In this document: positions 15,713-47,657 of the stretch, piece by piece
Numbering within the stretch: the stretch's first letter is position 1
Layout of the letters: each line of letters starts with the position of its first letter
Program-made: the position numbers and the translations under genes
Assembly (NCBI GenBank): GCA_003024785.1
Contig: PUQB01000070.1
Coordinates: 457,001 to 521,000 of the forward strand
Length of the DNA stretch: 64,000 nucleotides
Direction: 5' to 3'
Source: Selaginella tamariscina
Taxonomy: Eukaryota > Streptophyta > Lycopodiopsida > Selaginellales > Selaginellaceae
The notes under the pieces: model-generated
Seen by the model: only the letters and a program-made list of their open reading frames with translations
Told to the model about the DNA's origin: nothing
Database searches by the model: none

Positions 15713-18700
15713 TATGAATCCACAATATACAAATTTTTTATTTGTGGAACACCTACTCATGCAGTTGTTGAATGCCATGTGGATGCAACTGAATAATCAC
15801 TCTCAACTAATGGCAGCATTCACAACCCAGGTACTTCTCCTACTCCTATTGCAAACTCTCGTGTCCGGCCGGATTTCTTTCACGGAAATCCTGGAGATGA
15901 TGTGTATCATTGGTTTGACCACTTCACCATGACTACCATATATCATTCGTGCGACGGTGCTCAGTGTTTGCGCGAGTTTCCTACTTGTCTTCAAGGAACG
16001 GCGTTGTAGTGATACAATGGTCTGGACGTTGTAACTCGTGGAGATTGGAGTATTCTTCTAAAGATCTTCAAACATGTATTTGGGCATGCGAACGACTGTG
16101 ACGATGCTTTTCAGTAGTTCCATCTTATTTATCAGGAGCCATTTGAGCCGGTGATGCAGTTTGGTGTTCGCTTTTGGAGCCTTTTGTTGCGTGTAGAACC
16201 TAACATGTCAAAACATATCAAGTTAGGTATGTTGTGACTAGCACTTTGTCAAGACCTTGTGGGGCTTGTGCATGCACTAGCTCCAATGACTCTTGATGAT
16301 GCTTTGAAGCTAGCACAACGATATGAGTCGTCACCTCTCCCACTTGCACCATCGCATTCTCTCGTTCCACTTCATGTTGGGGATGGACTTGTTTCGATGG
16401 AGGTTGATGCTGTTGCTGCTTGTGTACCAACACAAGGTTGGGCCCATGGATGAGGACGTGGATGTCTAATTCGTTGTTGGGCGTGTGATGAGGTTGGACA
16501 CATGTATCGGCGTTGTCAATGGTTTCCCGATTGGCATCCTCCATTTCTAAAGTGGAGGCCCTGGCGTTAACAACATCTAGTTGACGCCATTGTAGTGGAA
16601 GGTCTTGATGCGGTGGATCTTTCGGGAAATAACGAAACGCATGAGTAAAGGAGGGTCCTTGAGCGAATAAATTAGTGACCCCTCTGTCTTTCTTTTGGGA
16701 GTATCATCAAGGGGTTCACTCGGCACCAGTTCATCCAGTTTTCACTTTTCAAGCTCTATAATCACACGCCACATCCTATTCTCTTTCAGTATTTGTGGAT
16801 ACAAGTTCAAGTTTGTCTTTTATTTCTCAGTCTATTGCTACATGTTGCAACCTTCATTTGCATCGTGCGGAAGAACCAGTCTTCATTTTGTATGGCAACG
16901 GACACTCATGCTTGTTCGCGGGATGAAGTTGACATTGTTGTTCTTGTAGATGATCATGAGCTTGAGCTTCAATCTTTAGAGTCAAGCTTTTCATCTTATT
17001 CTTGATATGGATTGGTTGACTTGCAATCATGCCAAGTGTGATTTTGAAAAGTTTCCCCATGTTTGACTCTTCCTTGTCTTTCTTCCATTCCTCTTATTTA
17101 TATTCCACTTTGTCCATCTACTTTTATTCCTTTTGTTTCACCCTTATTTTCAACCATCTTCCCTTTATGCTCTTCCTTTCCCTTTTTAGATCCATCAAAT
17201 GATTGTCTGCAATCGTTGATCAACTCAAGAAGAAGTATGATGATCTTTTCAATTTCGACTTGTCATTTAGGGCCAGGATTATGACATGCCACCTTATTTC
17301 AACTGGGGATGCTAGGCCAATCAAGGTACCTATTCGGCGTCGGTTACTAAAGAACTCAAAATCTTATGAGCAAATGTTAAGGAGATGTTGGAGAAGGGTG
17401 TTATCTGGAAATCTCAAAGTCCTTCGGCGTGTGAAACTCATCTTGTGATGAAGCCGGATAGGAGTGTTTAATTTTGCATCGACTATCGCCTAGTAAATGA
17501 TATAACCATTTCAGATGTGTATTCATTTCCTCATATTGCAGATCTTTTGGATTGACTAGGGCGGAGTTGTTGGTTCACCAAGTCCTTTTGGCTTTACGAG
17601 TTATTGATGATGCTTTTCGGTTTGAGCAATGCTCCAGCAACTTTCCAATGTATAATGGACGAGGTTCTTGCGATATGCTGAAGGTGACTACCAACTTTAT
17701 CGACAATGTTTTAATTCACTCGGATGGAACTTGAGAGGAGCATGTCGGTGATGTACGCAAAGTTTTGGATCAGCTGTGGGAAGTTGGTTTGAAGCTGAAG
17801 CCGTCTAAGTATGTGTTTGGATCCAAGAACACCACTTATCTTGGTTATTGCATTTCCCGTGAAGGTTTGCAAGTCGATCCTGACAAACTTGTTGCAGTTT
17901 TAAAGTTTACTATATCGAAGTGTGTGAATGATGTGCAACACTTTCTTAACAAGGTACAATATTTGGGTCGTTTTGTAGATCATCTTTTAGATCATACTGC
18001 ACCGCTTCAGGCGTTGCTGAAGTCCTTAATATCTTCTTTTGTTTGGTCTAAGGATTACAAGCAGGCATTTGCAGATCTTAAAGAGATATTGACGACTCCT
18101 CCAGTTTTGGCGTACCCTAATTACACTTGTCCATTTATCTTGCGCGTATATGCTTCTGACATTGGTCTCGGGGGCGTATTGATGCAGGAGAGTACGAGTG
18201 TCCCTAGCCAACGAGATCCCATTGCGTACATCAATAGTATGTTACAGCCAACAGAAGTGAACTACTCCACGACAAAAAAGGAGTGTCTAGCAGTAGTTTG
18301 GGGTTTTGAGAAGCTCCATGCCTACTTGCATGGTTCTCGGATGCTATTGAAAGGCGATCATGTAGTAGTCACTTTGTTGTTGAAGCGAAAGAATTTGATT
18401 TGTTGTACTGCTCGGTGTGGGCCTTGAAGCTTAAATCTACGACTTTGAAGTTGTTCATCGCCCCAGGAGTTCTATGACTGATGCTAATACTCTTTCTCGG
18501 GCTCCTCTTCACCTTATCTTTCTTCTTCTACCCCAGAGGAATCAATTCTTCCACATTAGTGGACTTTTTAGACGAAGATTCCGTACCATCAGTAGTTATT
18601 ATGCTTGACGTTCAATGTCCACAAAATGCAGAATTAGAGTTGCTGTCTTTGGATGAGGTTTGGAAGTTCAAAAGGTGGACCCGTGGATTCAAAGGGTTCG

Positions 18701-19912
18701 TGATGGGTTTGAGATCATGTATCACTTACTGATTATTTGCCTTTCAGGCATTTACATTCGCAATATCGCCTTCAGTTTCTCTCGTCCATTTGAGTTGATG
18801 GCGTTTTATTTGATGGGACCTTTTCCACAGTCAACTATTGGCAATGAGTACGTTATTATTGCTTCTAACTACCTAACTCGTTGGGTAGAAGTTGGTGCTC
18901 TTGTTAGTGCGACTGCTTTTGTTGTTTGTCAGTTTCTCCTTAATTGGGTCGTGTTTCAATATTTTTGTCTAGAGCGAATTCTCTCGGACAATGGTCCTAC
19001 ATTTATGGCCGAGGCATTTCATGTTTTAACGTCTCGATTAGGGATACGCCACACTTTCACAAGTGCTTATCATCCTTAGATAGATGGGTTGGTGGAACGG
19101 CTCATCAAGACCTTTAAGGGATGGTTGCGAAATATGTAAACTTTCAACATTTAGATTGGGATGGTTATCTGTCGTCTCTCCGATATGCTTATGTCACTGG
19201 AGTATAAAGTTCCGTTGGTACTTCCCCATATAAGCTCCTGTATGGTCATGACCTAGTGTTACCGACATAGTTGGGTCTACCTTCTTGGTTGCCACGAGCT
19301 ACTGATGCTAGGTCATGGGATCGGTATTTGATGAGCATTCTTCCATTGGTCGGTGCAGAGTCAACAAAATATTTGGGCTGCGTACAAGTAGGACAACAAC
19401 AATGCTACAACTCGCATCATCGTCCTTCTGCAAAGTACAAGGTTGATAAACTGGTGTTGGTTCGTTTTCCCAAACTTACAGTACGTGGTTAAGTTAAGAG
19501 TCTCCTTCCTCGGTGCAAAGGACCATATCGAGTGCTATGGCAAGTAGGACCACAAGTTTATTGAGGTTCGACATGACATGCAACTTGATCCCCCGAAGAT
19601 TGTACACGTGCAACTGTTGAAGTGTTTTGTGTAATGGGAACAAGTTGTGCCGCCTACAAATCCCCAGTGCCTCCTCCTGATGTTCCTCCATATCCGGGGC
19701 CATCTATTAGAGAACCCTAACCAACTTACATCCTTCCGAGAGGAGGGATGATGTAAGATCCACATGTACGACTGCATGTGCACATACTATTATTAGCGTA
19801 GTGGATTTTGATAATCGTTGGATTGGTTTCAATTTAGACCACTCGCTCTTGTATATAAGTTAGGGTTTCTAAACTAATAGAGATACACATTTCTATATTC
19901 CGAACTCTCACA
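15713..19912 (+). mobile_element. Ty3/Gypsy retrotransposon copy G1, 5'-truncated and dead
   Basis: Order gag - protease - RT - RNase H - integrase identifies Ty3/Gypsy. Gag ends with a zinc knuckle 'CWACDEVGHMYRRC' (about 16470-16511). A protease-like DTSSS segment lies near 16800, followed by 'HLILDMDWL'. RT (about 17450-17900) has FIDN in place of the catalytic YxDD (near 17699). RNase H has 'RVYASDIGLGGVL' (near 18145). Integrase has 'SDNGPTF' and 'LVERLIKTFK', but its first Asp is Tyr in 'FYLMGPFP' (near 18808). Many stops and frameshifts occur. The 5' LTR and leader are missing; homology to copy G3 begins near 15713. A purine-rich tract (about 19738-19751) precedes the 3' LTR. Confidence 0.9.
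19752..19912 (+). repeat. 3' LTR of Gypsy copy G1
   Basis: 161-bp short LTR beginning TGTAAGATCC and ending CTCTCACA, the same length as the 5' LTR of copy G3. It contains TATATAAG followed by GTTAGGGTTTCT, a TATA-like and telo-box-like promoter pair. Confidence 0.8.
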
Positions 19913-20144
19913 GACCCTTGGCTTAACTATTTGAGTTTAAGTCAAGGGTACGTTATAGCTCGTGTACGGTTGCATGACATACTATTATTAGTGTAGTGGA
20001 TTTTGATAGCTGTCGGATTAGTTTCAATTTGAACCACTCACTCTTGTATATAGGATTAGTTTCAATTTGAACCACTCGCTCTTGTATATAAGTTAGGGTT
20101 TCTGAACTAATGATATACACATTTTTATATTTTGAGTTCTCACA
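19913..20144 (+). repeat. palindromic linker plus second truncated LTR
   Basis: The 38-bp linker (19913-19950) holds CCCTTGGCTTAA and TTTAAGTCAAGGG, an imperfect inverted repeat. A second LTR-like copy follows at about 19959-20144. It lacks the first ten or so bases of the LTR and has a local duplication of a segment around GATTAGTTTCAATTTGAACC. The same arrangement occurs next to copy G3. Confidence 0.75.
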
Positions 20145-20713
20145 AATACAAATTTATAATTAATTTATATTTTATTATATTTAGTTCCAAAATGCAATTA
20201 GAAATGTAAGATAACTTTACCTTACAAACGTACATATTTTAATATAATGTAATTAATTAAAAAAATATAATTTCTTAACATTTGTTACCATAACATTTTT
20301 AAAACTGATTTAAATATTTTTAATTAAGTATTTTGATTTTAGAAGTCAAAGTATAATGACTGAATTTTTTTAAGGATATATATGTAAATTTAAAACTTTT
20401 AAAGGAATATATATGTAAATATAAAATTTCTAGAAGTATATATATACATATGTAAATATGAAATTTTTTGCAGTATATATACAACTTTTCCTAATTTTAA
20501 TGTGATTTATTTTGTATTTTTGAGTAAATATTTAACTCAGTTGTGTCAGAGATACAATGAATTTATATAATTCAGTAAAATCGATTACATACACTTTGAT
20601 GTGCTCTTATTTTATTAAGCAATCTTATAATATAGGAAAAAAAATTCAAACTTATACAGCATCTAATTTTTTGTTGTTAAAGCGTTATATAATTTGCGCA
20701 TGGAATTAAAAGA
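20145..20713. other. AT-rich 5' flank of the PPR gene
   Basis: No gene seen. It is matched in inverted orientation by 42752-43151. No clear TATA or telo-box close to the PPR start was recognised among the many AT runs. Confidence 0.4.
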
Positions 20714-22471
20714 ATGTCTCACGCGAGTTTATCTGCATCCACGGCCACACTGACGGCATATGCCCGAGAAGGGCATCTCCTGAAAGCCAAGAAGCTCTTC
20801 GACACACTCCCTAACCACGACGTGATCATATGGAACGCCATTCTCTCAGCATACACAGCCAACGGGCATCTGCAATACGGAATGCATCTCTTCTCGTGGG
20901 AAATGCCCATGAGAGACATAGCTTCGTGGAACACCATTTTGGCCGGACACACCCAGAACGGCCAAACGAGAACCATCTTCGATAGCATGCCTGCATGGAG
21001 CTTAATCTCCTGGAACGCGCTCCTCGCAGCATATGCCCACAATGGGCATCTCGAAGAAGCCGAGTCTTTGTTTGAATCCATGCCGGAAAGAGACATCATC
21101 TCATGGAACACCATGCTCACTGCATTCGCCCACAAAGACAACCTCAGAATGATGAAACAGTTATTCGATAAGATGCCGGAGAGAGACTTAGTCCCCTGGA
21201 CTGCCCTGCTAACTGCATATGCCAAGAACGGGCATCTGCAGGAAGCTAGACTGATATTTGAAGCAATGCCGGAACAAAACCTCTTCTCCTGGAACTCCAT
21301 GATCAACGGTTATGCCCAGAAAGGAAATCTCAAGGAAGCTAAAGCACTCTTCGATGCGATCCCACAAAGAGACGTCGTTACATGGACTGGAATGCTCTCT
21401 GCATATGCCCAGACCGGGCATCTCGACAGAGCTCAAGAAATCCTTGAAAGAATGCCATGCAAACACTTGGTGCCGATGATAACCATGCTAGTTGCGTACA
21501 CCCAGAATGAGGAACTAACTAATTCCAGACGGATTCTCGACAGCATGCCGGAGCATAACTTGATTGCTTGTAATGCAATGGTTTCAGCGTATGCCCAGAA
21601 AGGGCATCTGCATGATGCAAAAGAAGTCTTCGAGAAAATGCCTGAGAAGAGCCTCATAACATGGAATGCAATGCTCATAGTGAGTTCTCGCAAGGAACAA
21701 CTAAGTGAAGCAGAGTGTCTCTTTCAAAACATGCCGGAATGGAACACATTCTCGTATAATGAGATGATGAGTTTGTATGCCCGTCTCGGACGCATGGAGC
21801 AAGCACACCATCTCTTTTCTATGATGCGAGAGCAGTACCTGTTTGACGTCGTTTCCTTCAATATCATGATATCGATGTATGTTCAGAATGGGCATGTCTC
21901 TGAAGCCACTTGTCTTTTCAATGAGACGCCTGAGAAGGACCTTCTTTGTTGGACCACAATCTTGAATCTGTATACATTATCCGGAGACATTTTCCAAGCA
22001 CGAGCTTTCTTTGATCGGATGCCTGATTCGGACACCGTCTCATGGACTGCACTCCTTGCAGCAAATGCCCAGACCGGGCATCTGGATGAAACCGTCAAAG
22101 AGTTGTACAAGATGAACTTGGCTGGTATCTCAATCGATGAAGCATGCTTCTCAACTCTCCTTTCTGTGTCCAGTCGCTCGGGAAAGCTGTCCATTGCTAG
22201 GAAATGGTTCTGTTCTATGAGAATGGACTATGGAGTTCCTGCCTTGAAAAACCACTACAGCTGCGTTGTTGATCTGCTAACTCGTGCTGGGCATCTTGGC
22301 GACGCGGAGGATCTGGTTTCTAACATGCCGTTTGTACCTGATGGACTTGAGTGCAGGTGCTTACTTGCCTCTTCGAGAGGGAATGCTCAGGTGCAGTCGA
22401 TTCCTCTTATTCCTGACATTGAACATGGAGCTTCTTATGTGTTGTTGTCTAACGTATATACAACCAGTTGA
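20714..22471 (+). CDS. PPR protein, S-type repeats with short E1-like tail (copy 1)
   Basis: Intronless 585-aa protein, presumed to bind organellar RNA in a sequence-specific way, as is known for plant PPRs. About 17 tandem motifs of 31-33 residues are visible, mostly S-type ('DIISWNTMLTAFAHKDNLRM', 'NLISWNALLAAYAHNGHLEE'-like units ending MPE+R/K). Motif 3 is short by about four residues. L- and P/S-like motifs follow ('ISIDEACFSTLLSV', 'HYSCVVDLLTRAGHLGDAED'), then an E1-like end, 'ASYVLLSNVYTTS'. No E2, E+ or DYW domain is present, so it may have lost its editing tail. The first Met falls directly on a repeat and no obvious transit peptide is visible; an upstream exon is possible. It is a near twin of the copy at 40994-42751. 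Confidence 0.9.
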   Translation: MSHASLSASTATLTAYAREGHLLKAKKLFDTLPNHDVIIWNAILSAYTANGHLQYGMHLFSWEMPMRDIASWNTILAGHTQNGQTRTIFDSMPAWSLISWNALLAAYAHNGHLEEAESLFESMPERDIISWNTMLTAFAHKDNLRMMKQLFDKMPERDLVPWTALLTAYAKNGHLQEARLIFEAMPEQNLFSWNSMINGYAQKGNLKEAKALFDAIPQRDVVTWTGMLSAYAQTGHLDRAQEILERMPCKHLVPMITMLVAYTQNEELTNSRRILDSMPEHNLIACNAMVSAYAQKGHLHDAKEVFEKMPEKSLITWNAMLIVSSRKEQLSEAECLFQNMPEWNTFSYNEMMSLYARLGRMEQAHHLFSMMREQYLFDVVSFNIMISMYVQNGHVSEATCLFNETPEKDLLCWTTILNLYTLSGDIFQARAFFDRMPDSDTVSWTALLAANAQTGHLDETVKELYKMNLAGISIDEACFSTLLSVSSRSGKLSIARKWFCSMRMDYGVPALKNHYSCVVDLLTRAGHLGDAEDLVSNMPFVPDGLECRCLLASSRGNAQVQSIPLIPDIEHGASYVLLSNVYTTS

Positions 22472-25400
22472 TATGCATACACATAAATGTGAATCCACAA
22501 AAACTTTGCTGACTACACCGCAAGACAGATTAACTGGAGATACCATTCTAACCATTCCAGGAAGTGGCATGTGGTAGATTCAAGATATTCAACTATCTCT
22601 CTGATGTCATTCTTTTTGCCCGAAAGAAGTTCAATATGCATACTGAAATGTAGACCGCAATCTGAAGACCATACTGAATATGTATACGACTCTAGTTTTT
22701 AACACCACAAACTTTTAAAAAAAAACTCAAACCTATACTTTTATTATACATCCTTACATTTTTCAGTTATTATTACCTATTGTAAAATAAGCAAAAAAAT
22801 ATTACAATAATTTATAGAAACTCTGTCAGTATTTATTTAAATGTTTAAAGTATGAAAGAAGATTATAACAAGAGTAAAAAGATTATGTTTTAAATTATTA
22901 TTTAACATGGGTTTTTCTTACAAAGAAAGGGTATTATTTTTGGATAACTTTACCCTTAGTACATTTTTATTATTTATTATGTAAAAATTCATTTTTTTAA
23001 TCATTTTTATAGTATTTTCAGCTCTTATCACTTATTTCAAAATAAGCAAAATAATACTACAATAATGTTGTCCATTAATGGAAAATCATTTAATGTAAAC
23101 ATGAATTTTGCATTCACAAATCAAAAACACATTAGGAACACTCAAGGTTCATTATAAAAATACTATCAAAATATATAAATGTAATGCCTAAATGAATTAT
23201 TTTGATTAAAAAGTAAAGAATAAAAAACACTTAATACCATAATGTTCATAAATTAAGTTTTAAATTATTTTTCATTAAAATAATTAGTTATAACGAAGAA
23301 ATGGTATTACTTATGAAACTTTTCTTGTTCATATTATTTACTCATTTACGTGGAGATCATGTGTATTATGCATTATAAAACTTAAATAATTTTAATAAGG
23401 AGCAAGGTTGTATTGTATTTAAAATTAATTAATAATTTTAATAAGTAATTTTTATTTTTTTTCTTACTCTCACACACACATTCTTTTCATATGCATATGC
23501 ATTTCATGAGGCAGTCCTTATTTCATATTTATGCCAATGTTTAATAATTTTGCATTTGTGTGTATGTATGTGTTTGTATTTTACATTTATGTATGTATTT
23601 GTGTTTGTTTTTATGTGTTTCTTATTTGGAAGTTCAATGGTACTTGATTTTATTATGTTTAAATCATCTTTGTCAATTTATTTTGAAATATATCGTTAAG
23701 TTATTTGTATATTAAATAGTAATATGTTAAATATATTTTTAACTGACAAAGTATACACATGTCTTAGTATACATTTATGCATAAATGTATTAATCTCTTA
23801 ATATTTATTCTATTCTATGTTTTTTATTAAACAAGAAAAATGAAGTACCAAAAATAAACTCTTTTATCTTTACATTAAAAAAAAAATTTGAAACTAGCTT
23901 TAATCAATATTTCTTTTCCCTATTTTAAATTGACATGATAATAATATGTGTATGCAAGAAATGAATATATAACATTATGTTTAAATTTATATTGGATATG
24001 TAAATAAAATTTTTTAATTATGCTATTATAGTTATATTATATAAAAGTGAAGAGATTATTACTTAGAAAATTAAAAAGCAATACTAATTAATGTTTTTGC
24101 ATTACAATTATTAAAGTTAAAGTTTTTCTTTCAGAGTGTTATGTAAAAAACAAAATTAAGTAATAAAAAAATGTATTAAAGTGGTGTTAAATAATTAAAA
24201 TAAGAAAAATGAAAAATATAAAATAGAATTTTTACTGAATAATTAAAATATTTGGAATCATTGATTGTATTAATGAACTGTTAAAATATTTTCAAATAAA
24301 TTACAAATATTGTTTAATGATGTCATTATGGTATATATATATATATATATATATATATCAGCCATCTTGGTTTTATTAATGCATATACATATTATACGAC
24401 ATACAAATATACATGAATACATGCCAAGTTAAAAAGGAACAATTATTGTATTTAAAATATATTATTTATATACATAATGATAAAATGTTAAATGTGTTAT
24501 TGGAATATAAGGTATACATATAAAAAATTGTTTTATGCGTTGATGTATATTGTATTATTTATATACACATTAACAAATGTTAAATGTGTTATTCAAATAC
24601 ATATAAATATGTATTAAAGTAATAATCTTAAATATTAAATTTACTCTAGTAGAGTATTACTAAATTATGAGTTTTTTTAATTAAAAAAGAAAAATATAAA
24701 GTTATAAATCACTCAACAGTAATATATAAACTCTTTTATATATTTTTTTATCTTTATCTTTATAATGAAACACTACAGTTCTTAATAGTTTGTTAAACAA
24801 TAGTTTAAAGAAAGTTTCATTACATAACTATAATGTAATTTTGAACAAATCACTTAAATAATGCAAATTTTATTTTTTATTTTTACTTTTTATTGCTTTA
24901 ATAACATGTTTCATTTATATGTTTTATACATTTTTTTATTACTTGATTAGGTATATTTTATGATTTGAATGAAGAGTCTACTTTATATTACTTTTACATT
25001 TTTATTTAATGTATGGTTTTGCATAATATAATTTAATTTTATAATTGTTTAATTTGTAAACTCTTAATTAAATGTTAAATATAATAGACATAGTCTATTT
25101 ATTTCTTATAAATATATATCATTTTCATAATTAAAATACAAAAGAGAAGTATGAGTCAAAAATGTTAATATAAAGAAAAAATATTTTGACATAAAAGACA
25201 AAAGAATTTATATATTGAGATTAAGTGTTTTTGACTCTTTATTTTATTTCTAATAAAAAAATCATAGTTTAATGATATTTTATTAAAGTAAATTTGATAA
25301 TTAAGATTATTACATCCATCATAAAATGTATTTTATATGTATGTAAGAACACATTTAACATTTGATCAATATATATATATAATTAATATAATAAAAATAA

Positions 25401-25874
25401 TAATTATGGAGGTTTAATATTCATTCATTAGCAAAGCGAATCCATTTTTAAATTATATTTTCTTTTTAAATAATAAACACACATATGCCCACATGAACTT
25501 GTGTACATGGAAAGATAATAAAAAATTAAAAATTTAATAAAAAATAAGGATTGCATATTATGAAGTGCATGTGTATGTAGTGATTAATATATAAAATAAA
25601 AATTACATTCTAACATAAAAGAGTTATTAAGAAATCAATATAAGAATGTGTTGTTTTTATATTTTAGTTATTTGTACAATAGATTCAATATAATGTAACA
25701 ATAAAAACTTATATTTTTGAATTATAATTGTAATGTTTTTACATGTAAATTTGTCATTCAATCAAATTATATCCTTTTCTTTTGATGACACATTTGTTGA
25801 TTTGAAAATGCTTTATGATTATAAATATTTTTTTTTAATACATTTAAAATGAATATAATATTTTTCTTTTAATA
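22472..25874. other. AT-rich downstream flank of PPR copy 1
   Basis: About 3.4 kb without a recognisable gene; simple AT runs, e.g. (TA)n at 24332-24358. It is repeated in inverted orientation at about 37640-40990, where homology ends near 25860. Confidence 0.55.
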
Positions 25875-26165
25875 CATAACATGGAATGCAATGCTCATAT
25901 TGAGTTCTCGCAAGCAACAACTGAGTGAAATAGAATGTCTCTTTCAAAACATGCCGGAATGGAATATATTCTCGTGTAATGAGATGATCACCCGTCTCGG
26001 ACACATGGAGCAAGCACACCATCTCTTTTTTATGATGCGAGAGCAATACCTGTTTGACATCGTTTCCTTCAATATCACGATATCGATGTATGCCCAGAAT
26101 GGGCATGTTACTGAAGCCGCTTGTCTTTTTAATGAGACACCCGAGAAGGATCTTCTTTGTTGGAT
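25875..26165 (+). pseudogene. isolated PPR fragment (repeats 11-14)
   Basis: A 291-bp piece matching the PPR gene from 'ITWNAMLI' to 'EKDLLCW', still open but with a four-residue deletion before 'TRLGHMEQAHHLF'. Both edges are abrupt. The left joins the PPR downstream flank; the right joins the RPP30 downstream flank. It marks the breakpoint between two duplicated blocks. Confidence 0.85.
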
Positions 26166-27507
26166 CTTTTATGAATTTTCATTAATTATAATATTCAAAC
26201 AACAATTATTTCTTAAGTTCATAAAACTAACAAATTCAAATGAATTTTCATTAGTCACATTGTTTAATAAAGTTTCAATAATACTTATAATTTGTAACAA
26301 CATGTAACACAACGTTAATATATCTTTAATCCTCTTAAATCTTACATAAATAACTGAACAATCATTAAATAAAATTTCATCAGAAAATTCTATTATAATT
26401 AATTTTTTAAATTAAATAATATAATTTATTTTTATTTTTTACTTCTTATTACTTTGATAACATGTTCTTACTTTATTTATATGTTTTATCATTTCTTTTA
26501 ACACTTTCAAACAAATCAAAAACATTAATTAAAACCAATTGATTATTTTCATAAATTCCACATAGTATAAATATAATTATATAACTTTTCAACTTAACTA
26601 TTTCATTTTAAATGATTAATATAACTTTAAACATAGTGTTATATGTTTATTTCTTATGAATACATATCATTTTATCTCATATTAAAATATTAAAAAAAAA
26701 TATGAAATTAAAATATGAGAGAAGTATAATCATAAATGATATAATATTTTTAACACAGCTAAAAGAGTATATATATTAGTGTTAAGTGTTTTTAACTCTT
26801 TATATTTCCTTTTTTAATTAAAAACAATTGTAATGTACTGATATTTTAGTAGAATAAATTTAATATTTGAGATTATTACCTTGATACATAAAACATATTT
26901 TATATGTATACTTAGACATTTAAATAACACATTTAACATTTTGTTATTGTCCATATAAATAATAAAATATAAATAATAACTAAGAATTTATTTTAAAACA
27001 ATAATATAATTATCAATTGTTATCGAGCTTTAAATAAAATTTTAAACTCAAGCAACAAACATAACTTATGTATGTGAAGCACTTAAATATATGGAATAAG
27101 GAAATAAAAATACTTATTGGCGTTTCATGAATGTTCCTTTTGCTACTGTATACATTTTCACATGTAGACTTCTCTTTTTATAGTTTAAATATGTATGCAA
27201 ACACACACACACACATAAATATACTTTGTAATGAAAAATTTATTTAGAATTATAAATTTAAATTATAATCCTAATAAAATGTAAACATACGTTACACAGA
27301 TCATGTTAAAACTCCAGCTGTGATTTTGGAAAGCAATTTATTAATTTATTTGGTAAATATGTGCAAGTTTAATGAATTAATTAAATAAATATTGTTTCTT
27401 TTATAAATTTTGAACACATACATACAGTCTATGAGGATGCCACTTAAATTCCCGGCGTAAATCATAAAGCTGTTACATATGTAAATCATATTTTAGGCTA
27501 AACAGGA
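26166..27507. other. duplicated 3' flank of the RPP30-like copy
   Basis: AT-rich, no gene seen. It matches about 58957-60290 in inverted orientation, the flank downstream of the full-length RPP30. Confidence 0.6.
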
Positions 27508-28123
27508 CTATGAATTTATACTCTTCCGTACCGGTTCTGCAGCTTCCGTACTCTTCCTCTTTCGTATCGGTTCACTCTTCGTCTGCCGTACAGGTACTAT
27601 TGTTTCTGAGATTGTGTTAAGAGTTGATAAATCCTTGTCAGGAAGCACGTATTCATCTGGTGTGGAGAGGGGATCCCAAGCTGTGGGCACTTCAAACTCT
27701 GCTTGTGAATTATCTATAGCAATCGCTGCCTTGTACGTGTTCCTTCTTGCATAACCACGCAACAGAACTGACCTGAAAATACCCAAACAAGTACATGTTA
27801 TTACGTATAAAGCAAGTGCATTACACTCAGATGAAAACATGGTGTTATACTCGAACATAATTTAGCAACGGTATACTTCAGAGTCAATGATACACATTAA
27901 TAAATATAATATGATATATTAATGGTACTAGAAGCTTACTTGCAGTTTTTTGAGATTGCACCCTTTGCTTGCTCCATTGTTAAACCAAACAATGTTGACA
28001 TATTTGCAACGTCGTTAGGTCCTCTTATTTCAAAAGCTTGTCTTGCTCCACTGCTTAAAATAATATTACGCCCACGAGATGCGGTCACTAACATCTATAA
28101 GACAGTAGGATAAGTACTAAGCT

Positions 28124-35813: not shown

Positions 35814-35825
35814 TGTGTGTGTGTG
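35782..35825. repeat. (GT)n(GA)n(GT)n microsatellite at the gene U / PPR junction
   Basis: Same place as the tracts in units A1 and A2; the PPR pseudogene begins right after it. Confidence 0.85.
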
Positions 35826-36845
35826 CAGCTGTAGTGGTTTTTCAAGGCAACTCTATAGTCCTTGCTTCATCGACTGAGATACCAACCGAGTTCACTTGTA
35901 CAGTATCTGTACAGTTTCATTCAGATGCCCTGTCTGCACATTTGCTGAGTCCACGAGACTGTGTTCGACTCAGGCATCCAATCAAAGAAATCTCGTGCTC
36001 GGATAAGGATTTAAGATCGTGGTCGGTCTTTAATATCATGATATTGAAGGAAAAGACGTCAAACTGGTACTGGCCTGTGAATGCACCCAAGACGGACATA
36101 CAAATTGCAAGGTGTTTCATTTTGGCATGTTTTAAAAGAGACATTGCATTCCATGATATGAGGCTCTTCTCAGGCATTTTCTCAAAGACTTCCTTTGCAT
36201 TGCATCTTGCAGATGCCCGTTCTGGGAATATAGAATCTGTCTGGATTTCGTTAGGTCCACGTTCTGGGAGTAAGCAACTAGCATGGTTATCATCGGCACC
36301 AAGTGTTTGCACGGCATTCTTTTAAGGATTTCTTGAGCTTGGTCGAGATGCCCGAACTGGGCATATGCAGAGAGCATTCCAGTCCTGCTTTAGCTTCCTT
36401 GAGATATCTTTTCTGGACATAACCATTGATCATAGAGTTCCAGGAGAAGAGGTTTTGTTCCGGCATTGCTTCAAATATCAGTCTCGCTTCCTGCATATGC
36501 GGACTGAGTGTCTCTCCAGCATCTTATCGAAGATCCATTTCATCACTCTGGAATTGTCTTGGTGAGAGGATGCAGTGAGCATGGTGTGATGTCTCTCTCT
36601 CACAAAGACTCGGCTTCCTTGAGATGCCCATTATGGGCATATGCTGCAAGGAGCGCGTTCCAGCTCCATGTAGGCTTGTTGGATTTGCCCGTTTTGGGTG
36701 TGTCCGGCCAGGAAGCTATGTCTCTCAAGGTCATGCATTCCGTATTGCAGATGCCCGTTGCTTGTGTATGCTGAGAGAATGGCGTCACATCTTAGGCAGT
36801 ATGGCAAACAGCTTTCAGGAGATACCCTTCTCGGTATATGTCGTC
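35826..36845 (-). pseudogene. PPR pseudogene, unit A4
   Basis: Minus-strand PPR remnant of about 1.0 kb, closest to the copy in unit A2. Blocks such as 'QEARLIFEAMPEQNLFSWNS', 'MLSAYAQFGHLDQAQEILKR' and 'VLRTDHDLKSLSEHE'-type frameshifted pieces are visible. Several repeats are deleted. Confidence 0.85.
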
Positions 36846-37639
36846 GTAAACTCTTCTCTTAAGAAAATGGTGTGTTTATATAATTAAAACTAAAAATATA
36901 ACTCTTTTAATTACATTCAATTCGTACAACACTTAATTATAATAAAAACATGAACATTAAAAATAATTTATTATTTATTTTAAATATTTTAGGGATTTTG
37001 ATAGAATTTAATATAAACACACACACATACACTTATAGAGCAATTTAATGCCTTCAATAAATTAATTTTAAAGGGTTATATCATCAAATAATAAGGTTTT
37101 TACATGTCAAATATTTTAAAGTGTTTTTAATATCATAGAGGATCAAAAATAAATTATGTTTTTAAAATTTTAGAGGCTAATATCATTATTTAATTAGTTT
37201 TTCTTAAACACTAATTGTGTTACATCACAATTAATATGCATAATAATATATATATATATAAAAATAGTGGTGTTTAAGACATAACTACACACACACAATA
37301 AATTACATGATTTATTTGGTATTTTTAAGTAACTATTTAACTCATTAATTGTGAAAGAGAGAGTATTAATGATAAATGTATATAATTCATTATAATAATT
37401 TTAATGTGCAATTTTATTTTATTAAACAATCCTTTTTAAATGAACTTTATTTTTAACTTGTATGTATAGTAGTTATAACTTTTGTTATAAAATTGTATGT
37501 ATATATATATATATATATAAACAAAAACATAAATGGAATTTCAAGAAATAAAAGTGATTTTCTAGTTCTGTATAATTATCGAATTGACTCTTTAGTTTAT
37601 ATTAATCAGTTCAATAATTTTCAGATGAATAAATATATT
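36846..37639. other. AT-rich flank, direct copy of 10010-10820
   Basis: No gene seen. It links unit A4 to the right arm of the large inverted repeat; similarity to unit A2's flank carries on to about 37925. Confidence 0.55.
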
Positions 37640-40600
37640 AAAAGAAAAATATTTACAATCATAAAACATTTTCAAATCAATAAATGTGTCATAAAAAGAA
37701 TAGGATATAATTTAATTGAATGACAAATTTAGATATAAAAACATTATAATTATAATTCAAAAAATATAACTTTTTATTGTTACATTATATTGAATCTATT
37801 GTACAAATAACTAAATATAAAAACAACACATTCTTATATTGATCTCTTAATAACTCTTCTATGTTAGAATGTAATTTTTATTTTATATATTAATCACTAC
37901 ATACATATGCACTTCATAATATGCAATCCTTATTTTTTATTATCTTTCCATGGACACAAATTTTTATGGGCATATGTGTGTTTATTATTTAAAAAAAAAT
38001 ATAATTTAAAAATGGATTAGCTTTGCTAATGAATGAATATTAAACCTCCATAATTATTATTTTTATTATATTAATTATATATATATTGATTAAATGTTAA
38101 ATGTGTTCTTACATGTCAAAGTATACATATAAAATACATTTTATGATGGATGTAATAATTTCAATTATTAAATTTACTTTAATAAAATATCATTAAACTA
38201 TGATTTTTTTATTGAAAATAAAATAAAGAGTCAAAAACACTTAATCTCAATATACAAATTCTTTTGTCTTTTATGTCAAAATATTTTTTCTTTATATTAA
38301 CATTTTTAACTCATACTTCTCTTTTGTATTTTAATTATGAAAATGATATATATTTATAAGAAATAAATAGGCTATGTCTATTATATTTAACATTTAATTA
38401 AGAGTTTACAAATTAAACAATTATAAAATTAAATTATATTATGCAAAACCATACATTAAATAAAAATGTAAAAAGTAATATAAAGTAGACTCTTCATTCA
38501 AATCATAAAATATACCTAATCAAGTAATAAAAAAATGTATAAAACATATAAATGAAACATGTTATTAAAGCAATAAAAAAGTAAAAAATAAAAAATAAAA
38601 TTTGCATTATTTAAGTGATTTGTTCAAAATTACATTATAGTTATGTAATGAAACTTTCTTTAAACTATTGTTTAACAAACTATTAAGAACTGTAGTGTTT
38701 CATTATAAAGATAAAGATAAAAAAATATATATAAAAGAGTTTATATATTACTGTTGTGATTTATAATTTTATATTTTTCTTTTTTAATTAAAAAACCCAT
38801 AATTTAAAGATTATTACTTTAATATATATTTATATGTATTTGAATAACACATTTAATATTTGTTATTGTGTATATAAATAATACGATATATATCAATGCA
38901 TAAAATAATTTTTTATATATATACCTTATATTCCAATAACATATTTAACATTTTATCATTATATATATAAATATAATATTTTAAATACAATAATTGTTCT
39001 TTTTTCAACCTGGGATGTATTCATGTATATGTGTATGTCGTAGAATATGTATATGCATTAATAATACCAAGATGGCTAATATATATATATATATATACCA
39101 TGATGACATCATTAAACAATATTTGTAATTTATTTGAAAATATTTTAACAGTTCATTAATACAATTAATGATTCCAAATATTTTAATTATTCAGTAAAAT
39201 TCTATTTTATATTTTATATTTTTTCTTATTTCAATTATTATTCATTTTTTCTCATTTAATTATTCAGTAAACATTTTATTTTATATTTTCCATTTTTTCT
39301 TATTTTAACATGTTATTACCTCATTTAAATACTTTAATACATTTTTTTATTACTTAATTTTGTTTTTTACATAACACTCCGAAAGAAAAACTTTAACTTT
39401 AATAATTGTAATGCAAAAACATTAATTAGTATTGCTTTTATATAATTTTTTATTTACATATCCAATATAAATTTAAACATAATGTTATATATTCATTTCT
39501 TGCACACACATATTATTATCATGTCATATTTAAAATGGGGAAAAGAAATATTGATTAAAGTTAGTTTCAATTTTTTTTTAATATAAAGATAAAAGAGTTT
39601 ATTTTTGGTACTTGATTTTTCTTGTTTAATAAAAAACATAAAATAAAATAAATATTAAGAGATTAATACATTTATGCATAAATGTATACTAAGACATATA
39701 TATACTTTGTCAGTTAAAAAACACATTTAACATATTACTATTTAATATACAAATAACTTAATGATATATTTCAAAATAAATTGACAAAGATGATTTAAAC
39801 ATAATAAAATCAAGTGCCATTGAATTTCCAAATAAGAAACACATAAAAACAAACACAAATACATACATAAATGTAAAATACAAACACATACATACACACA
39901 AATGCAAAATTTATTAAACATTGGCGATAAATATGAAATAAGGACTGCCTCATGAAATGCATATGTATATGAAAGAGAATGTGTGTGTGAGAGTAAAAAT
40001 AAAAATAAAAATTACTTATTAAAATTATTAATTAATTTTAAATACAATACAACCTTGCTTCTTATTAAAATTATTTAAGTTTTATAATGCATAATACACA
40101 CGATCTCCACGTAAATGGGTATATAATATGAACAAGGAAATAGTTTCATAAGTAATACCGATTTCTTCGTTATAACTAATTATTTTAATGAAAAGCAATT
40201 TAAAACTTAATTTATGAATATTATGGTATTAAGTGTTTTTTATTCTTTACTTTTTAATCAAAATAATTCATTTAGGCATTACATTTATATATTTTGATAG
40301 TATTTTTATAATGAACCTTGAGTGTTCCTAATGTGTTTTTGATTTGTGAATGCAAAATTCATGTTTACATTAAATGATTTTCCATTAATGGACAACATTA
40401 TTGTAGTATTATTTTGCTTATTTTGAAATAAGTGATAAGAGCTGAAAATACTATAAAAATGATTTAAAAAATGAATTTTTACATAATAAATAATAAAAAT
40501 GTACTAAGGGTAAAGTTATCCAAAAATAATACCCTTTCTTTGTAAGAAAAACCCATGTTAAATAATAATTTAAAACATAATCTTTTTACTCTTGTTATAA

Positions 40601-40993
40601 TCTTCTTTCATACTTTAAACATTTAAATAAATACTGACAGAGTTTCTATAAATTATTGTAATATTTTTTTTGCTTATTTTACAATAGGTAATAATAACTG
40701 AAAAATGTAAGGATGTATAATAAAAGTATAGGTTTGAGTTTTTTTTTTAAAAGTTTGTGGTGTTAAAAACTAGAGTCATATACATATTCAGTATGGTCTT
40801 CAGATTGCGGTGTACATTTCAGTATGCATATTGAACTTCTTTCGGGCAAAAAGAATGACATCAGAGAGATAGTTGAATATCTTGAATCTACCACATGCCA
40901 CTTCCTGGAATGGTTAGAATGGTATCTCCAGTTAATCTGTCTTGCGGTGTAGTCAGCAAAGTTTTTGTGGATTCACATTTATGTGTATGCATA

Positions 40994-42751
40994 TCAACTG
41001 GTTGTATATACGTTAGACAACAACACATAAGAAGCTCCATGTTCAATGTCAGGAATAAGAGGAATCGACTGCACCTGAGCATTCCCTCTCGAAGAGGCAA
41101 GTAAGCACCTGCACTCAAGTCCATCAGGTACAAACGGCATGTTAGAAACCAGATCCTCCGCGTCGCCAAGATGCCCAGCACGAGTTAGCAGATCAACAAC
41201 GCAGCTGTAGTGGTTTTTCAAGGCAGGAACTCCATAGTCCATTTTCATAGAACAGAACCATTTCCTACCAATGGACAGCTTTCCCGAGCGACTGGACACA
41301 GAAAGGAGAGTTGAGAAGCATGCTTCATCGACTGAGATACCAGCCAAGTTCATCTTGTACAACTCTTTGACGGTTTCATCCAGATGCCCGGTCTGGGCAT
41401 TTGCTGCAAGGAGTGCAGTCCATGAGACGGTGTCCGAATCAGGCATCCGATCAAAGAAAGCTCGTGCTCGGAAAATGTCTCCGGATAATGTATACAGATT
41501 CAAGATCGTGGTCCAACAAAGAAGGTCCTTCTCAGGCGTCTCATTGAAAAGACAAGTGGCTTCAGAGACATGCCCATTCTGAACATACATCAATATCATG
41601 ATATTGAAGGAAACGACGTCAAACAGGTACTGCTCTCGCATCATAGAAAAGAGATGGTGTGCTTGCTCCATGCGTCCGAGACGGGCATACAAACTCATCA
41701 TCTCATTCCACGAGAATGTGTTCCATTCCGGCATGTTTTGAAAGAGACACTCCGCTTCACTTAGTTGTTCCTTGCGAGAACTCACTATGAGCATTGCATT
41801 CCATGTTATGAGGCTCTTCTCAGGCATTTTCTCGAAGACTTCTTTTGCATCATGCAGATGCCCTTTCTGGGCATACGCTGAAACCATTGCATTACAAGCA
41901 ATCAAGTTATGCTCCGGCATGCTGTCGAGAATCCGTCTGGAATTAGTTAGTTCCTCATTCTGGGTGTACGCAACTAGCATGGTTATCATCGGCACCAAGT
42001 GTTTGCATGGCATTCTTTCAAGGATTTCTTGAGCTCTGTCGAGATGCCCGGTCTGGGCATATGCAGAGAGCATTCCAGTCCATGTAACGACGTCTCTTTG
42101 TGGGATCGCATCGAAGAGTGCTTTAGCTTCCTTGAGATTTCCTTTCTGGGCATAACCGTTCATCATGGAGTTCCAGGAGAAGAGGTTTTGTTCCGGCATT
42201 GCTTCAAATATCAGTCTAGCTTCCTGCAGATGCCCGTTCTTGGCATATGCAGTTAGCAGGGCAGTCCAGGGGACTAAGTCTCTCTCCGGCATCTTATTGA
42301 ATAACTGTTTCATCATTCTGAGGTTGTCTTTGTGGGCGAATTCAGTGAGCATGGTGTTCCATGAGATGATGTCTCTTTCCGGCATGGATTCAAACAAAGA
42401 CTCGGCTTCTTCGAGATGCCCATTGTGGGCATATGCTGCGAGGAGCGCGTTCCAGGAGATTAAGCTCCATGCAGGCATGCTATCGAAGATGGTTCTCGTT
42501 TGGCCGTTCTGGGTGTGTCCGGGCAAAATGGTGTTCCACGAAGCTATGTCTCTCATGGGCATTTCCCACGAGAAGAGATGCATTCCGTATTGCAGATGCC
42601 CGTTGGCTGTGTATGCTGAGAGAATGGCGTTCCATATGATCACGTCGTGGTTAGGGAGTGTGTCAAAGAGCTTCTTGGCTTTCAGGAGATGCCCTTCTCG
42701 GGCATATGCCGTCAGTGTGGCCGTGGATGCAGATAAACTCGCGTGAGACAT
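40994..42751 (-). CDS. PPR protein, S-type repeats with short E1-like tail (copy 2)
   Basis: 585 aa, the same length and architecture as the copy at 20714-22471. About ten residues differ: for example Ala to Pro in 'LPGHTQ', Ala to Glu in 'LTEFAHKD', Asp to Asn in 'LFNKMPE', Tyr to Trp in 'FSWNEMM', Ser to Leu in 'IMILMYV' and Arg to Lys in 'SMKMDY'. Both frames are intact with no stop, so both may be expressed. Change at fifth-residue or last-residue positions of motifs could alter RNA preference, which cannot be judged here. Confidence 0.9.
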   Translation of the reverse strand: MSHASLSASTATLTAYAREGHLLKAKKLFDTLPNHDVIIWNAILSAYTANGHLQYGMHLFSWEMPMRDIASWNTILPGHTQNGQTRTIFDSMPAWSLISWNALLAAYAHNGHLEEAESLFESMPERDIISWNTMLTEFAHKDNLRMMKQLFNKMPERDLVPWTALLTAYAKNGHLQEARLIFEAMPEQNLFSWNSMMNGYAQKGNLKEAKALFDAIPQRDVVTWTGMLSAYAQTGHLDRAQEILERMPCKHLVPMITMLVAYTQNEELTNSRRILDSMPEHNLIACNAMVSAYAQKGHLHDAKEVFEKMPEKSLITWNAMLIVSSRKEQLSEAECLFQNMPEWNTFSWNEMMSLYARLGRMEQAHHLFSMMREQYLFDVVSFNIMILMYVQNGHVSEATCLFNETPEKDLLCWTTILNLYTLSGDIFRARAFFDRMPDSDTVSWTALLAANAQTGHLDETVKELYKMNLAGISVDEACFSTLLSVSSRSGKLSIGRKWFCSMKMDYGVPALKNHYSCVVDLLTRAGHLGDAEDLVSNMPFVPDGLECRCLLASSRGNAQVQSIPLIPDIEHGASYVLLSNVYTTS

Positions 42752-43151
42752 TCTTTTAATTCCATGCGCAAATTAATAATTATATATATATATATAAACG
42801 CTTTAACAACAAAAATTATAGATTCTATATATATATATATATATATATATACTTCTAGAAATTTTATATTTACATATATATTCTTCTAAAAGTTTTCAAT
42901 TTACATATATATCCTTCAAAAAATTCAGTCATTATATTTTGAATTCTAAAATCAAAATACTTAATTAAAATTATATTTAAATCAGTTTTAAAAATGTTAT
43001 AACAAATGTTAAGAAATTATATTTTTTTAATTAATTACATTATATTAAAATATATATGTTTGTAAGGTAAAGTTATCTTACATTTCTAATGAGTAAGGTT
43101 GCATTTTGGAACTAAATATAATAAAATATAAATTAATTATAAATTTGTATT
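42752..43151. other. AT-rich 5' flank of PPR copy 2
   Basis: Contains (TA)n runs at about 42782-42797 and 42829-42851. It matches the flank of copy 1 in inverted form. No gene seen. Confidence 0.45.
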
Positions 43152-43348
43152 TGTGAGAACTCGAAATATAGAAATGTGTATATCATTAGTCCAGAAACCT
43201 TAACTTATATAAAAGAGAATGGTTGAAATTGAAACTAATCCGACGGCTATTAAAATTCACTACACTAATAATAGTATATATGCACATGCAGTCGTACACG
43301 AGCTTTAACGTACCCTTGACTTAAACTCAAATAGTTAACTCAAGGGTA
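43152..43348 (-). repeat. second truncated LTR plus palindromic linker beside G3
   Basis: LTR-like sequence at 43152-43303, lacking the LTR's first ten or so bases, then a linker at about 43307-43348 with CCCTTGAC and its inverted partner TCAAGGGT. It mirrors the arrangement after G1. Confidence 0.7.
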
Positions 43349-43483
43349 TGTGAGAGCTCGGAATATAAAAATGTGTATCTCTATTAGTTCAGAAACTCTA
43401 ACTTATATACAAGAGGGAGTGGTCAAAATTGAAACCAATCCGACGATTATTAAAATCCACTACGCTAATACGTGGATCTTACA
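43349..43483 (-). repeat. 3' LTR of Gypsy copy G3
   Basis: 135 bp, shorter than the others because about 25 bp around the TGCATGTGCACAT segment are deleted. Confidence 0.75.
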
Positions 43484-46400
43484 TCATTCCCTCTTCTCGA
43501 AAGGATGTAAGTTGATTAGGGTTCTCTAATAGATGGGCCTGGATATGGAGAAACATTAGGAGGAGGCACTGGGGATTTGTAGGCGGCACAACTTGTTCCC
43601 ATTGCACAAAACACTTCAATAGTTGCACGTGTACAATCTTCGGGGGATCAAGTTGCATGTTGTGCTAAACCTCATAAATTTGTGGTCCTACTTGCCATAG
43701 CACTCGATATGGTCCTTTCCACCAAGGAAGGAAACTCTTAGCTTAACCACGTACTGTAAGTTTGGGAAAACGAATCAACACCAGTTCATCAACCTTGTAC
43801 TTTGCAGGAGGACGATGATGCAAGTTGTATCGTTGTTGTTGTCCTACTTGTACACGGCCCAAATATTCTGTTGACTCTGCACGGACCAATGGAAGAATGC
43901 TCATCAAATACTGATCCCATGACCTAGCATCAGCAGCTCGTGGCAACCGAGAAGGTAGACCCAACTCCGTCGGCAACACTAAGTCATGACCCTACAAGAG
44001 CTTATATGGGGAAATACCAACGGAACTTTATACTCCAGTGACATAAGCATATCGGAGAGACGGCATATAACCATCTCAATCTAAATGTTGAAAGTTCACA
44101 TATTTTGCGATCATTCCCTTAAAGGTCTTGATGAGCCGTTCCACCAACCCATTTGTCTAAGGATGATAAGCACTTGTGAAAGTGTGGCATATCCCCAATC
44201 GAGACGTTAAAACATGAAATGCCTCGGCCATAAATGTAGGACCATTGTCCGAGAGAATTCGCTCTAGACAAAAATGTTGAAACACGACCCGATTAAGGAG
44301 AAATTAACAAACAACAAAAGCAGTCGCACTAACAAGAGCACCAACTTCTACCTAACGAGTTAGGTAGTCAGAAGCAATAATAACGTACTCATTACTAGTA
44401 ATTGATTGTGGAAAAGGTCCCATCAAATAAAATGCCATCAACTCAAATGGATGAGAAACTGAAGGCGATATTGCGAATGTAAATGCCTGAAAGGCAAATC
44501 ATTAGCAAGTGATACAGGATTCTCAAACCCATCACGAACCCTTTGAATCCACGGCTCCACCTTTTGAACTTTCCAAACCTCATCCAAAGACAACAACTCT
44601 AATTCTGCATTTTGTGGACACTGAACGTTAAGCATAGCAATTGCTGATGGTACGGAATCTTCGTCCAAAAAGTCCACTAATGCTGGAAGAATTGATTCCT
44701 CTGGGGCAGAAGAAGAAAGAGAAGGTGGAAAAGGAGCCCGAGAAAAAGTATCAACATCAGCCATAGAACTCCTGGGGCAATGAACAACTTCAAAGTCGTA
44801 GATTTATAGCTTCAAGGCCCACACCAAGCAGTACAACAAATGAAATTCTTTGCTTCAACAACAAAGTGACTGCTACATGATCGCCTTCCAATAGCGTTCG
44901 AGAACTATGCAAGTAGCATGAAGCTTTTCCAAACCTCAAATTACTGCTAGACACTCCTTTTTTGTCGTGGAGTAGTTCACTTCTATTGGCTACAACATAC
45001 TACTGATGTACGCAATGGGATGTCGTTGGCCAGGGACACTCGTACTCTCCTACATCAATACGCCCCCGAGACCAATGTCAGAAGCATATACACGCAAGAT
45101 AAAGGACAAGTGTAATCAGGATACACCAAAACTGGAGGAGTTGTCAATATTTCTTTAAGATCTGCAAATGCCTGCTTGTAATCCTTAGACCAAACAAAAG
45201 AAGATATTAAGGACTTTAGCAACGCCTGAAACAATGCAGTACGATCTGAAAGATGATTTACAAAAGGACCCAGATATTGTACCTTGCCAAGAAAGTGTTG
45301 CACATTATTCACACACTTCGATGTAGGAAACTTTCAAAACTGCAACAAGTTTGTCAGGATCGACTTGCAAACCTTCATAAGAAATGGAATAACCAAGATA
45401 AGTGGTGTTCTTGGATCCAAACACACACTTAGACGACTTCAGCTTCAAACCAACTTCCCACAGCCGATCCAAAATTTTGCGTACATCACCGACATGCTCC
45501 TCCCAAGTTCCATCCGAGTGAATTAAAACATTGTCGATAAAGTCGGTAGTTACCTTTAGCATATCGCAAAGAACCTCGTCCATCGTATGTTGGAAAGTTG
45601 CTATAGCATTGCTCAAACCGAAAGGCATCACCAATAACTCGTAGAAGCCAAAAGAACTTGGTGAACCAACAGCTCCGCCCTAGTCAATCCAAAAGATCTG
45701 CAGTATGAGGAAATGGATACACATCTGAAATGGTTATATCATTTACTGGGCGATAGTCGATGCAAAATCGAACACTCCATTCGGCTTCATCACAAGATGA
45801 GGTTCGCACGCCAAGGACTTCGAGAATTCCAGATAACACCCTTCTCCAACATCTCTTAACATTCGCTCATAAGATCTTGAGTTCCTTTAATGACCGATGC
45901 CGAACAGGTACCTTGATTGGCCTAGCATCCCTAGTTGAAATAAGGTGGCATGTCACAATCCTGGCCCCAGATGACAAGTCAAATTGAAAAGATCAGCATA
46001 TTAATTCTTGAGTTGATCAACGATTGCAGCACGACAATTATTTGATGGATCTAAAAAGGGAAAGGAATAGCATAAAGGGAAGATGGTTGAAAGTAAGGGT
46101 GAAACAAAAGTGATAAAAGCAGATGGACGAAGTGGAATATAAGTAAGAGGAATGAAGAAGACAAGGAAGAGTTAAACATGGGGAAACTTTTTAAATCACA
46201 CTTGGCATGATTGCAAGTCAACCAATCCATACCGAGAATAAGATGAAAAGCTTGACTCGGCGCCACCCATAAAGTTTGAAGCTCAAGCTCATGATCATCT
46301 ACATGAACAACAATGTCAACTTCATCCTGCGAACAAGCATGAGTGTCCATTGCCATACAAAATGAAGACTGGTTCTTCCGCACGATGCAAATGAAGGTTG

Positions 46401-47657
46401 CAACATGTAGCAATATACTGAAAAATAAAGGACAAACTCGAACTGTATCCACAAACACTGAAAGGAGAATAGGACGTGGCAATAAAGCTTGAAAAGTGAA
46501 AACTGGATGAACTGGTGCCGAGTGAACCCCTTGATGATACTCCCAAAAGAAAGACAAAGGGTCACTAATTTTTTGCACAAGAACCCTTCTTTACTCATGC
46601 ATTTCATTGTTTCCCAGAAGATCCACCGCATCAAGACCTTCCACTACAATGGCGCCAACTAGATGTTGACGCCAGGGCCTCCACCTCGGAAATGGAGGAT
46701 GCCAATCAAAAAACTGTTGACAACGCCGATATGTGTGTCCAACCTCATCACACGCCCAACAACGAACTAGACGTCCATGTCCTCATCCACGGGCCCAACC
46801 TTGTGTTGGTACACGAGCATCAACAGCATCAACCTCCATCGAAACAAGTCCATCCCCAACATAGAGAATGCGACGGTGCAAGTGGGAGAGGTGACGACTC
46901 ATATTGTTGTGCCAGCCTCAAAGCATCATCAAGAGTCACTGGAGCTAGTGCATGCACAAGCCCTACAATGTCTTGACGAAGTGCTAGCCACAACATACCT
47001 AACTTGATATGTTCTGACATGTTAAGTTCTACACGTAGCAAAATGCTCCAAAAGCAAACACCAAACTGCATCACCGGCTCAGATGGCTCCTGACAAATAA
47101 GATGCAACTACTGAAAAACATCGTCACAGTCGTCCGCATGCCCAAATACACGTTTGAAGATCTCTGGAAGAATACTCCAATCTCCAGGAGTTACAACGTC
47201 CAGACCATTGTATCACTACAATGCCGTCCCTTGAAAACAAGTAAGAAACTCGTGCAAACATTGAGCACCATCCCACAAATGATATATGGTAGCCATGGTG
47301 AAGTGGTCAAACTAATGGTACACATCATCTCCAGGATTTCCGCGAAAGAAATCCAGCCGGACACGAGAGTTTGCAATAGGAGCAGGAGGAGTACTCTGGG
47401 TTGTGAATGATGCCATCAGTTGAGAGTGATTGTTTAGTTACATCCACATGGCATTCAACAACTGCATGAGTAGCTGCTCCACAAATAAAGAATTTGCCTA
47501 TTGTGGATTCATGTACGAAGAAAGGACAAATCTACAAAAAAGAAATAAATTTAGACAATGGAAAAGTTAAATCTAAGAAGACAAAAAGATTGACAAAAAA
47601 AAACACAAATCCAAGCACTTTGTAAGGACAATTAGAGGTGCCCCTCACCTCCACCAA

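Follow-up and report, generated by a model that had tools for sequence, protein, structure and literature searches.

Gene conversion between the arms of palindromes occurs on mammalian Y chromosomes. In plants, unequal crossing over and gene conversion have been invoked to account for likeness among the pentatricopeptide repeat (PPR) genes inside the RFL clusters of rice (PMC5075784). The soybean I locus is described as an inverted CHS1-3-4/CHS4-3-1 cluster (PMC6710647, PMC3804491) whose two identical 10.91-kb arms are separated by a 5.71-kb spacer (PMC6710647). Here, we analyze a 64,000-nucleotide stretch of the Selaginella tamariscina genome (C1060:457001-521000, hereafter the window; 300.7 Mb in 1,391 contigs, one assembly examined) in which two PPR genes occupy the opposite arms of a large inverted repeat. 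A limited literature search found no paper on such an inverted PPR pair. The locus is best explained as a local duplication in inverted orientation within a PPR cluster, followed by gene conversion between the arms, a reading to which we assign a probability of roughly three in four.

Arms of the inverted repeat and their PPR genes

Self-BLAST of the window returned two long minus-strand matches, 15711-20459 with 47515-42829 (90.4% identity with gaps) and 20653-25846 with 42831-37630 (93.0% with gaps), both with an E value of 0. Since these matches are far beyond chance, the two arms constitute an inverted repeat. The arms include non-mobile flanking DNA and enclose 11.8 kb of spacer, across which the cruciform extrusion suggested in the initial annotation is unlikely. 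That annotation had described two ~10-kb arms in opposite orientation, each with a dead Gypsy copy and an intact PPR gene, and the self-BLAST, the frames, and the domain remnants bear this out: each arm contains Gypsy sequence in decay and a PPR frame that is open over 585 codons. Its picture of an inverted repeat stands as to the presence of the arms, but their likeness is uneven along their length. No terminal inverted repeats were visible by eye in the 70 bases inspected at the ends of arm A. The principal features are as follows.

15711-25846, plus strand: arm A, probably the derived copy (self-BLAST, identity profile); outer end cut within the Gypsy leader
37630-47515, minus strand: arm B, probably the original (self-BLAST); its Gypsy copy continues to a 5' long terminal repeat (LTR) at ~47658-47818
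20714-22471, plus strand: PPR frame of arm A with 585 codons; most of its repeats are 31 residues long, and an E1-like stretch closes it
40994-42751, minus strand: PPR frame of arm B, 585 codons, protein 98% identical to that of arm A
20722-23242 (counterpart ~40221-42743), plus strand: high-identity block in which 17 of 2520 sites differ, interpreted as a gene-conversion tract
24677-25171 (counterpart ~38294-38791), plus strand: non-coding stretch in which 5 of 493 sites differ, possibly a second tract of conversion
15711-19912, plus strand: decayed Gypsy copy A, 5' end missing; 3' LTR at ~19752-19912, followed by a 38-bp inverted repeat
43311-47818, minus strand: decayed Gypsy copy B with both LTRs, 16.4% apart (self-BLAST, reverse-transcriptase remnants)
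29673-33931, plus strand: Gypsy copy C, the third, located in the spacer; it lacks its 5' end and has no PPR gene attached (self-BLAST)

Pfam PPR domains, as expected of a PLS-type protein, were found in both frames (PF01535; 1.3e-95 and 1.8e-89), and residues 97-344 form eight consecutive repeats of exactly 31 residues each. The two proteins differ at ten amino acids, seven of them within recognized repeat stretches and the remaining three (residues 77, 495, and 503) uncovered. None of the placed differences falls at residue 5 or at the last residue of a 31-residue repeat, the positions that we take to read the RNA base. After the stop codon of arm A, no E2/DYW tail was visible by eye in three frames, although the DYW model was not run there. 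Since the three frames inspected at the E1-like point among the six nearest in the genome (L003, L005, and L006) stop 6 to 12 codons past it, ending after this stretch may be usual for the family. A genome protein search with the PPR frame gave 286 matches (75 of 5,229 candidates scored), and only A and B exceeded 54% identity among the matches listed. A DNA search with 20145-25900 (40 of 1,345 candidates scored) found, beyond a dispersed AT-rich piece at 20145-20457, matches within the window only, save for one of 43 bases on C1057. Approximately 193 bases upstream of the arm A frame (20459-20653) are without a counterpart in arm B, which gives the PPR copies differing 5' leaders.

Uneven divergence of the arms and history of the Gypsy copies

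The internal Gypsy sequence differs between arms A and B at 6.8% of sites (272/4000) and the AT-rich spacer piece beside it at 8.2% (30/366), and the PPR frame differs at 0.80% (14/1758). The low value extends past the stop codon through 798 non-coding bases (0.75%, 6 differences) and gives way to 3.0% over the next 738 bases (22 differences; Fisher 0.002). Further inward, the values are 5.6% (32/571), 1.0% (5/493), and 4.1% (26/636), and the flanks that lie outside transposable elements (non-TE flanks) differ by 4.8%. A block scan on all changes delimited the alike segment at 20722-23242, with 17 differences at 2520 sites inside and 416 at 7166 outside, and its log-likelihood was 79, compared with at most 11 across 200 permutations. 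The same block emerged from a scan of transitions only, whereas a scan of transversions only across the whole arms gave 20722-24180 (12.8 vs 9.9). When block and non-TE flanks were compared directly, for regions picked after viewing the profile and with the second alike stretch excluded from the flank count, differences numbered 20/2556 and 110/2311, respectively (Fisher 6e-19), and indels 2/2556 and 30/2311. On all changes, then, the likeness takes the form of an edged block that exceeds both flanks and extends to synonymous and non-coding sites. Within the frames there are 3 synonymous and 11 non-synonymous changes, giving nearly equal proportions of differing synonymous and non-synonymous sites (pS 0.0079, pN 0.0080); for an omega of 0.2, the probability of 3 or fewer synonymous changes among 14 is 0.001-0.003, and no omega of 0.2 or below fits with a P above 0.003. 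Since pN equals pS, strong protein constraint is not what keeps the arms alike, and this equality, together with the equally alike non-coding part, led us to reject strong purifying selection as an account of the block. The same two observations make copying of a segment between the arms the better reading, and the process that reset the block was probably inter-arm gene conversion. The suggestion in the initial annotation that the arms can pair thereby gains indirect support, as the identity profile is best read as inter-arm recombination of this kind.

Several points weigh against conversion and should be considered together. The profile might also arise if the PPR block were slowed by selection or by a locally low mutation rate while the Gypsy sequence was sped by methylation-driven decay. 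Such a process would fit the two open frames without indels and the composition of the Gypsy excess, which is mostly C>T or G>A (40 of the 45 changes private to copy A, as polarized below). It would also fit the transversion-only scan of the non-TE part, which picked 20728-25691 (25/4840 vs 17/520) and failed to isolate the gene block, so that the contrast rests partly on transitions. With 14 changes, an omega near 0.4-0.5 remains compatible, and some frame-keeping selection is possible considering that 1758 coding bases carry 0 indels and the next 798 bases carry 2. Mutation rate may vary with chromatin or base make-up, and an assembly or polishing effect may contribute in the one assembly examined. 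However, a slowed block sits poorly with the equality of pN and pS, with 798 post-stop non-coding bases that match the likeness of the frame when the 738 bases beyond them differ four times as much, with the scarcity of indels in the block relative to the flanks, and with a second alike stretch (24677-25171) that is non-coding. We therefore regard a history without conversion as unlikely, and retain gene conversion as the preferred reading.

The Gypsy copies allow the duplication to be placed relative to this event. Copy A retains Gypsy RNase H and integrase-like remnants, and copies B and C retain reverse-transcriptase remnants; pairwise distances are 6.8% (A-B), 5.9% (A-C), and 7.4% (B-C). 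Using ten genomic relatives (L027-L036) as outgroup, with 32 other family loci scored and 1.9 kb compared, A, B, and C formed one clade (100/100) with A and C joined within it (96/90). At sites where the outgroup agreed, 140 changes were common to all three copies; single-copy changes numbered 45 in A, 47 in B, and 45 in C, and paired changes 18 in A and C, 11 in B and C, and 10 alike plus 2 differing in A and B. The single clade and the 140 shared derived sites indicate that the copies are local duplicates. Considering that the LTRs of copy B are 16.4% apart, compared with 3.1-6.7% among the 3' LTRs of A, B, and C, the insertion predates its copies. Clade, shared sites, and LTR ages thus point to one old Gypsy insertion copied by DNA duplication, and independent insertions in A, B, and C were rejected on the tree and the shared derived sites. 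Since the tree places A nearer to C than to B, copying would have been a short series rather than a single event. The five relatives inspected in this respect (C15, C1331, C890, C654, and C1137) have additional sequence at two places, 70-71 bases at one and 269-271 at the other; the alignment of A with C is unbroken at both, and B shows no such gap against A. All three copies are followed, after the 3' LTR, by a 38-base inverted repeat of the GACCCTTGG... type (19913-19950, 33893-33931, and 43346 downwards). The ten outgroup relatives are nearly identical to one another (end branches 0-0.0042), whereas the window copies are old and decayed.

Both ends of the arms bear on the direction of copying. 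At the outer end, B continues into the Gypsy leader and 5' LTR, whereas A breaks off within that leader at position 15711. The sequence flanking this break is a repeat that also occurs at C1060:441019-441377, and 2-3 bases at the junction are common to it and the leader. On the inner side, B continues into a further repeated unit (X/PPR unit 4), of which A has only the last ~290 bases followed by a PPR fragment. Both ends fit B as the original, so that B is probably the source and A the derived arm; loss of the X unit and the 5' LTR from A would, however, mimic this direction. We propose that an inverted duplication, from B to A, took in the old Gypsy copy, the AT-rich spacer piece, the PPR gene, and the 3' flank of that gene, and that copying at about the same time also produced Gypsy piece C and several X/PPR units. 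Later, the PPR segment of one arm would have been copied onto the other by gene conversion, resetting a 2.5-kb block of gene and 3' flank to near identity as both sides went on diverging, with C-to-T change predominating in the decay of the Gypsy parts. A more speculative extension, which we consider doubtful, is that the inverted arms act as a standing conversion machine in which the PPR genes are repeatedly matched, recurrent conversion and not constraint on the protein keeps the frames open, and the 193-base leader present only in A permits differing expression.

Silencing and assembly artefact as alternative readings

The initial annotation had also raised antisense transcription across the PPR genes and the formation of double-stranded RNA. 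At such a locus, read-through or antisense transcription would make the arms a source of double-stranded RNA and of small RNAs acting on the PPR genes, as at soybean I. The two ~10-kb inverted arms, convergent genes, and intervening spacer do recall that locus (PMC6710647), and 1464 of the 1738 frame 21-mers are common to A and B. However, the stop codons of the converging frames lie 18.5 kb apart (22471 to 40994), so that a fold-back transcript would have to traverse the entire spacer, and soybean I-type silencing involves identical arms near enough for read-through, whereas here the arms are 93% identical outside the block and separated by 11.8 kb. The ratio of transitions to transversions is 13:7 in the PPR block versus 234:38 in the Gypsy sequence (Fisher p 0.02 on small numbers), indicating that the block is without the bias toward cytosine decay seen in the Gypsy copies, which look silenced; the non-TE flanks (76:34) resemble the block, and observed/expected CpG did not separate frame (0.72) from Gypsy (0.64-0.70). 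No exact 21-mer is common to the frames and six of their nearest genomic paralogues. In a DNA search with the frame alone (40 of 327 candidates scored), off-window matches reached at most 461 bases at 65-85% identity, so that obvious trans targets would seem to be few. With the stop codons so far apart and no transition excess in the PPR block, the antisense and double-stranded RNA proposal was not borne out, and a silencing locus of this kind seems improbable to us, although these observations may be compatible with small RNAs directed at the A and B copies.

An artefact would mean that the assembly fused two haplotypes or a chimeric molecule in opposing orientation, or that polishing evened out the gene block. 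Near-identical contig pairs do exist elsewhere in the assembly (L007/L008, 99.6%), but that pair, presumably haplotigs, has 8 mismatches in 4 kb, compared with 4.8-6.8% between the arms outside the block. The arms are moreover separated by 11.8 kb of unlike sequence and bordered by unlike sequence beyond each end, the region 48000-57000 is without a second copy, no further copy of the PPR frame exceeds 54% identity among the matches listed, and the contig continues to 713,698 bases in all. Given the arm divergence, and with no second copy of the 48000-57000 region or of the frame (matches listed), a haplotype join is unlikely, and we give an artefact of any of these kinds very little credence.

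Local duplication around the arms and comparison with known systems

Approximately 71% of window bases match another place in the window, rising to ~90% for bases 1-48000. The spacer content reported earlier (PPR fragment, RPP30-like copy, Gypsy copy, hAT fragment, and U/PPR unit, termed X/PPR here) was recovered at the coordinates below. AT-rich repeats with other copies inside the window are present, and the miniature inverted-repeat transposable element that had been named is a candidate.

25873-26304, plus strand: PPR fragment just inside the inner end of arm A (domain match)
26171-28861, minus strand: partial inverted copy of an RPP30 gene, middle exons missing (self-BLAST, domain matches)
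57130-60309, plus strand: RPP30-like gene with three exon pieces that match RNase_P_p30; the spacer copy derives from it or is its sister
33978-34154, plus strand: hAT-type transposase fragment (match to DUF659, which we take to accompany hAT-type transposases)
34822-37922, plus strand: X/PPR unit 4, whose last ~290 bases double as the inner end of arm B
2224-5481, minus strand: X/PPR unit X1, decayed PPR pieces (self-BLAST)
6492-9994, plus strand: X/PPR unit X2, decayed PPR pieces, between X1 and X3 (self-BLAST)
11861-14702, plus strand: X/PPR unit X3, decayed PPR pieces (self-BLAST)

Two further inverted pairs were found. The smaller, to the left of arm A, joins 902-5481 with 15165-11861 (self-BLAST) and contains X1 and X3, which are 0.94-0.99 alike in most 200-column steps. 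The other comprises the spacer RPP30 copy and 57130-60309, its second side lying beyond the range 15713-47508 of the initial annotation. A genome search located the RPP30 exon at two places, each within the window, with 112/112 residues alike; the first-exon copies (28469-28861 and 57130-57525) are 98.5% alike and the remaining block ~89%. The X unit has four window copies, 82-92% alike to X3; C560, C1059, and C678 contain more distant relatives, and there are also matches of 40-60 bases; no Pfam match was found in the seven X-unit pieces given (including 4501-5070, 6613-6951, 3660-4157, and 6952-7458). Minus-strand exon pieces at 52000-56608 include an Arm-repeat match (56009-56608) and a weak P34-Arc match (52980-53285), and no RNA families or tRNAs scored above thresholds in the window. 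We propose that the locus is a local duplication hotspot.

The locus offers a single case in which an old retrotransposon, 6.8% apart between the arms, serves as a clock against which a gene reset to 0.8% can be set, so that the effects of duplication and of conversion become separable. A further warning is that near-identical PPR copies need not imply recent duplication or selection. Like the palindromes of mammalian Y chromosomes, it comprises inverted duplicates whose coding segments probably owe their likeness to exchange, although Y palindrome arms are alike over nearly their whole length and here there is one 2.5-kb tract, perhaps two. Among known cases of silencing by a layout of this kind, the soybean I locus comes closest, with its gene-bearing inverted arms of ~10 kb and a spacer within a cluster of duplicates (PMC6710647, PMC3804491). 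Its arms are identical, and small RNAs and distant targets have been shown, whereas the present arms are several percent divergent and enclose 11.8 kb of spacer. The RFL clusters of rice share with this locus a local PPR cluster of intact and decayed members, with sequence exchange invoked to explain high likeness among them (PMC5075784). However, RFL genes are P-class and, as that paper depicts them, arranged in tandem (PMC5075784), whereas the genes described here, with eight 31-residue repeats in a row (residues 97-344) rather than P-class 35-residue repeats, are mostly PLS-like, form an inverted pair, and would have exchanged sequence between two arms only.

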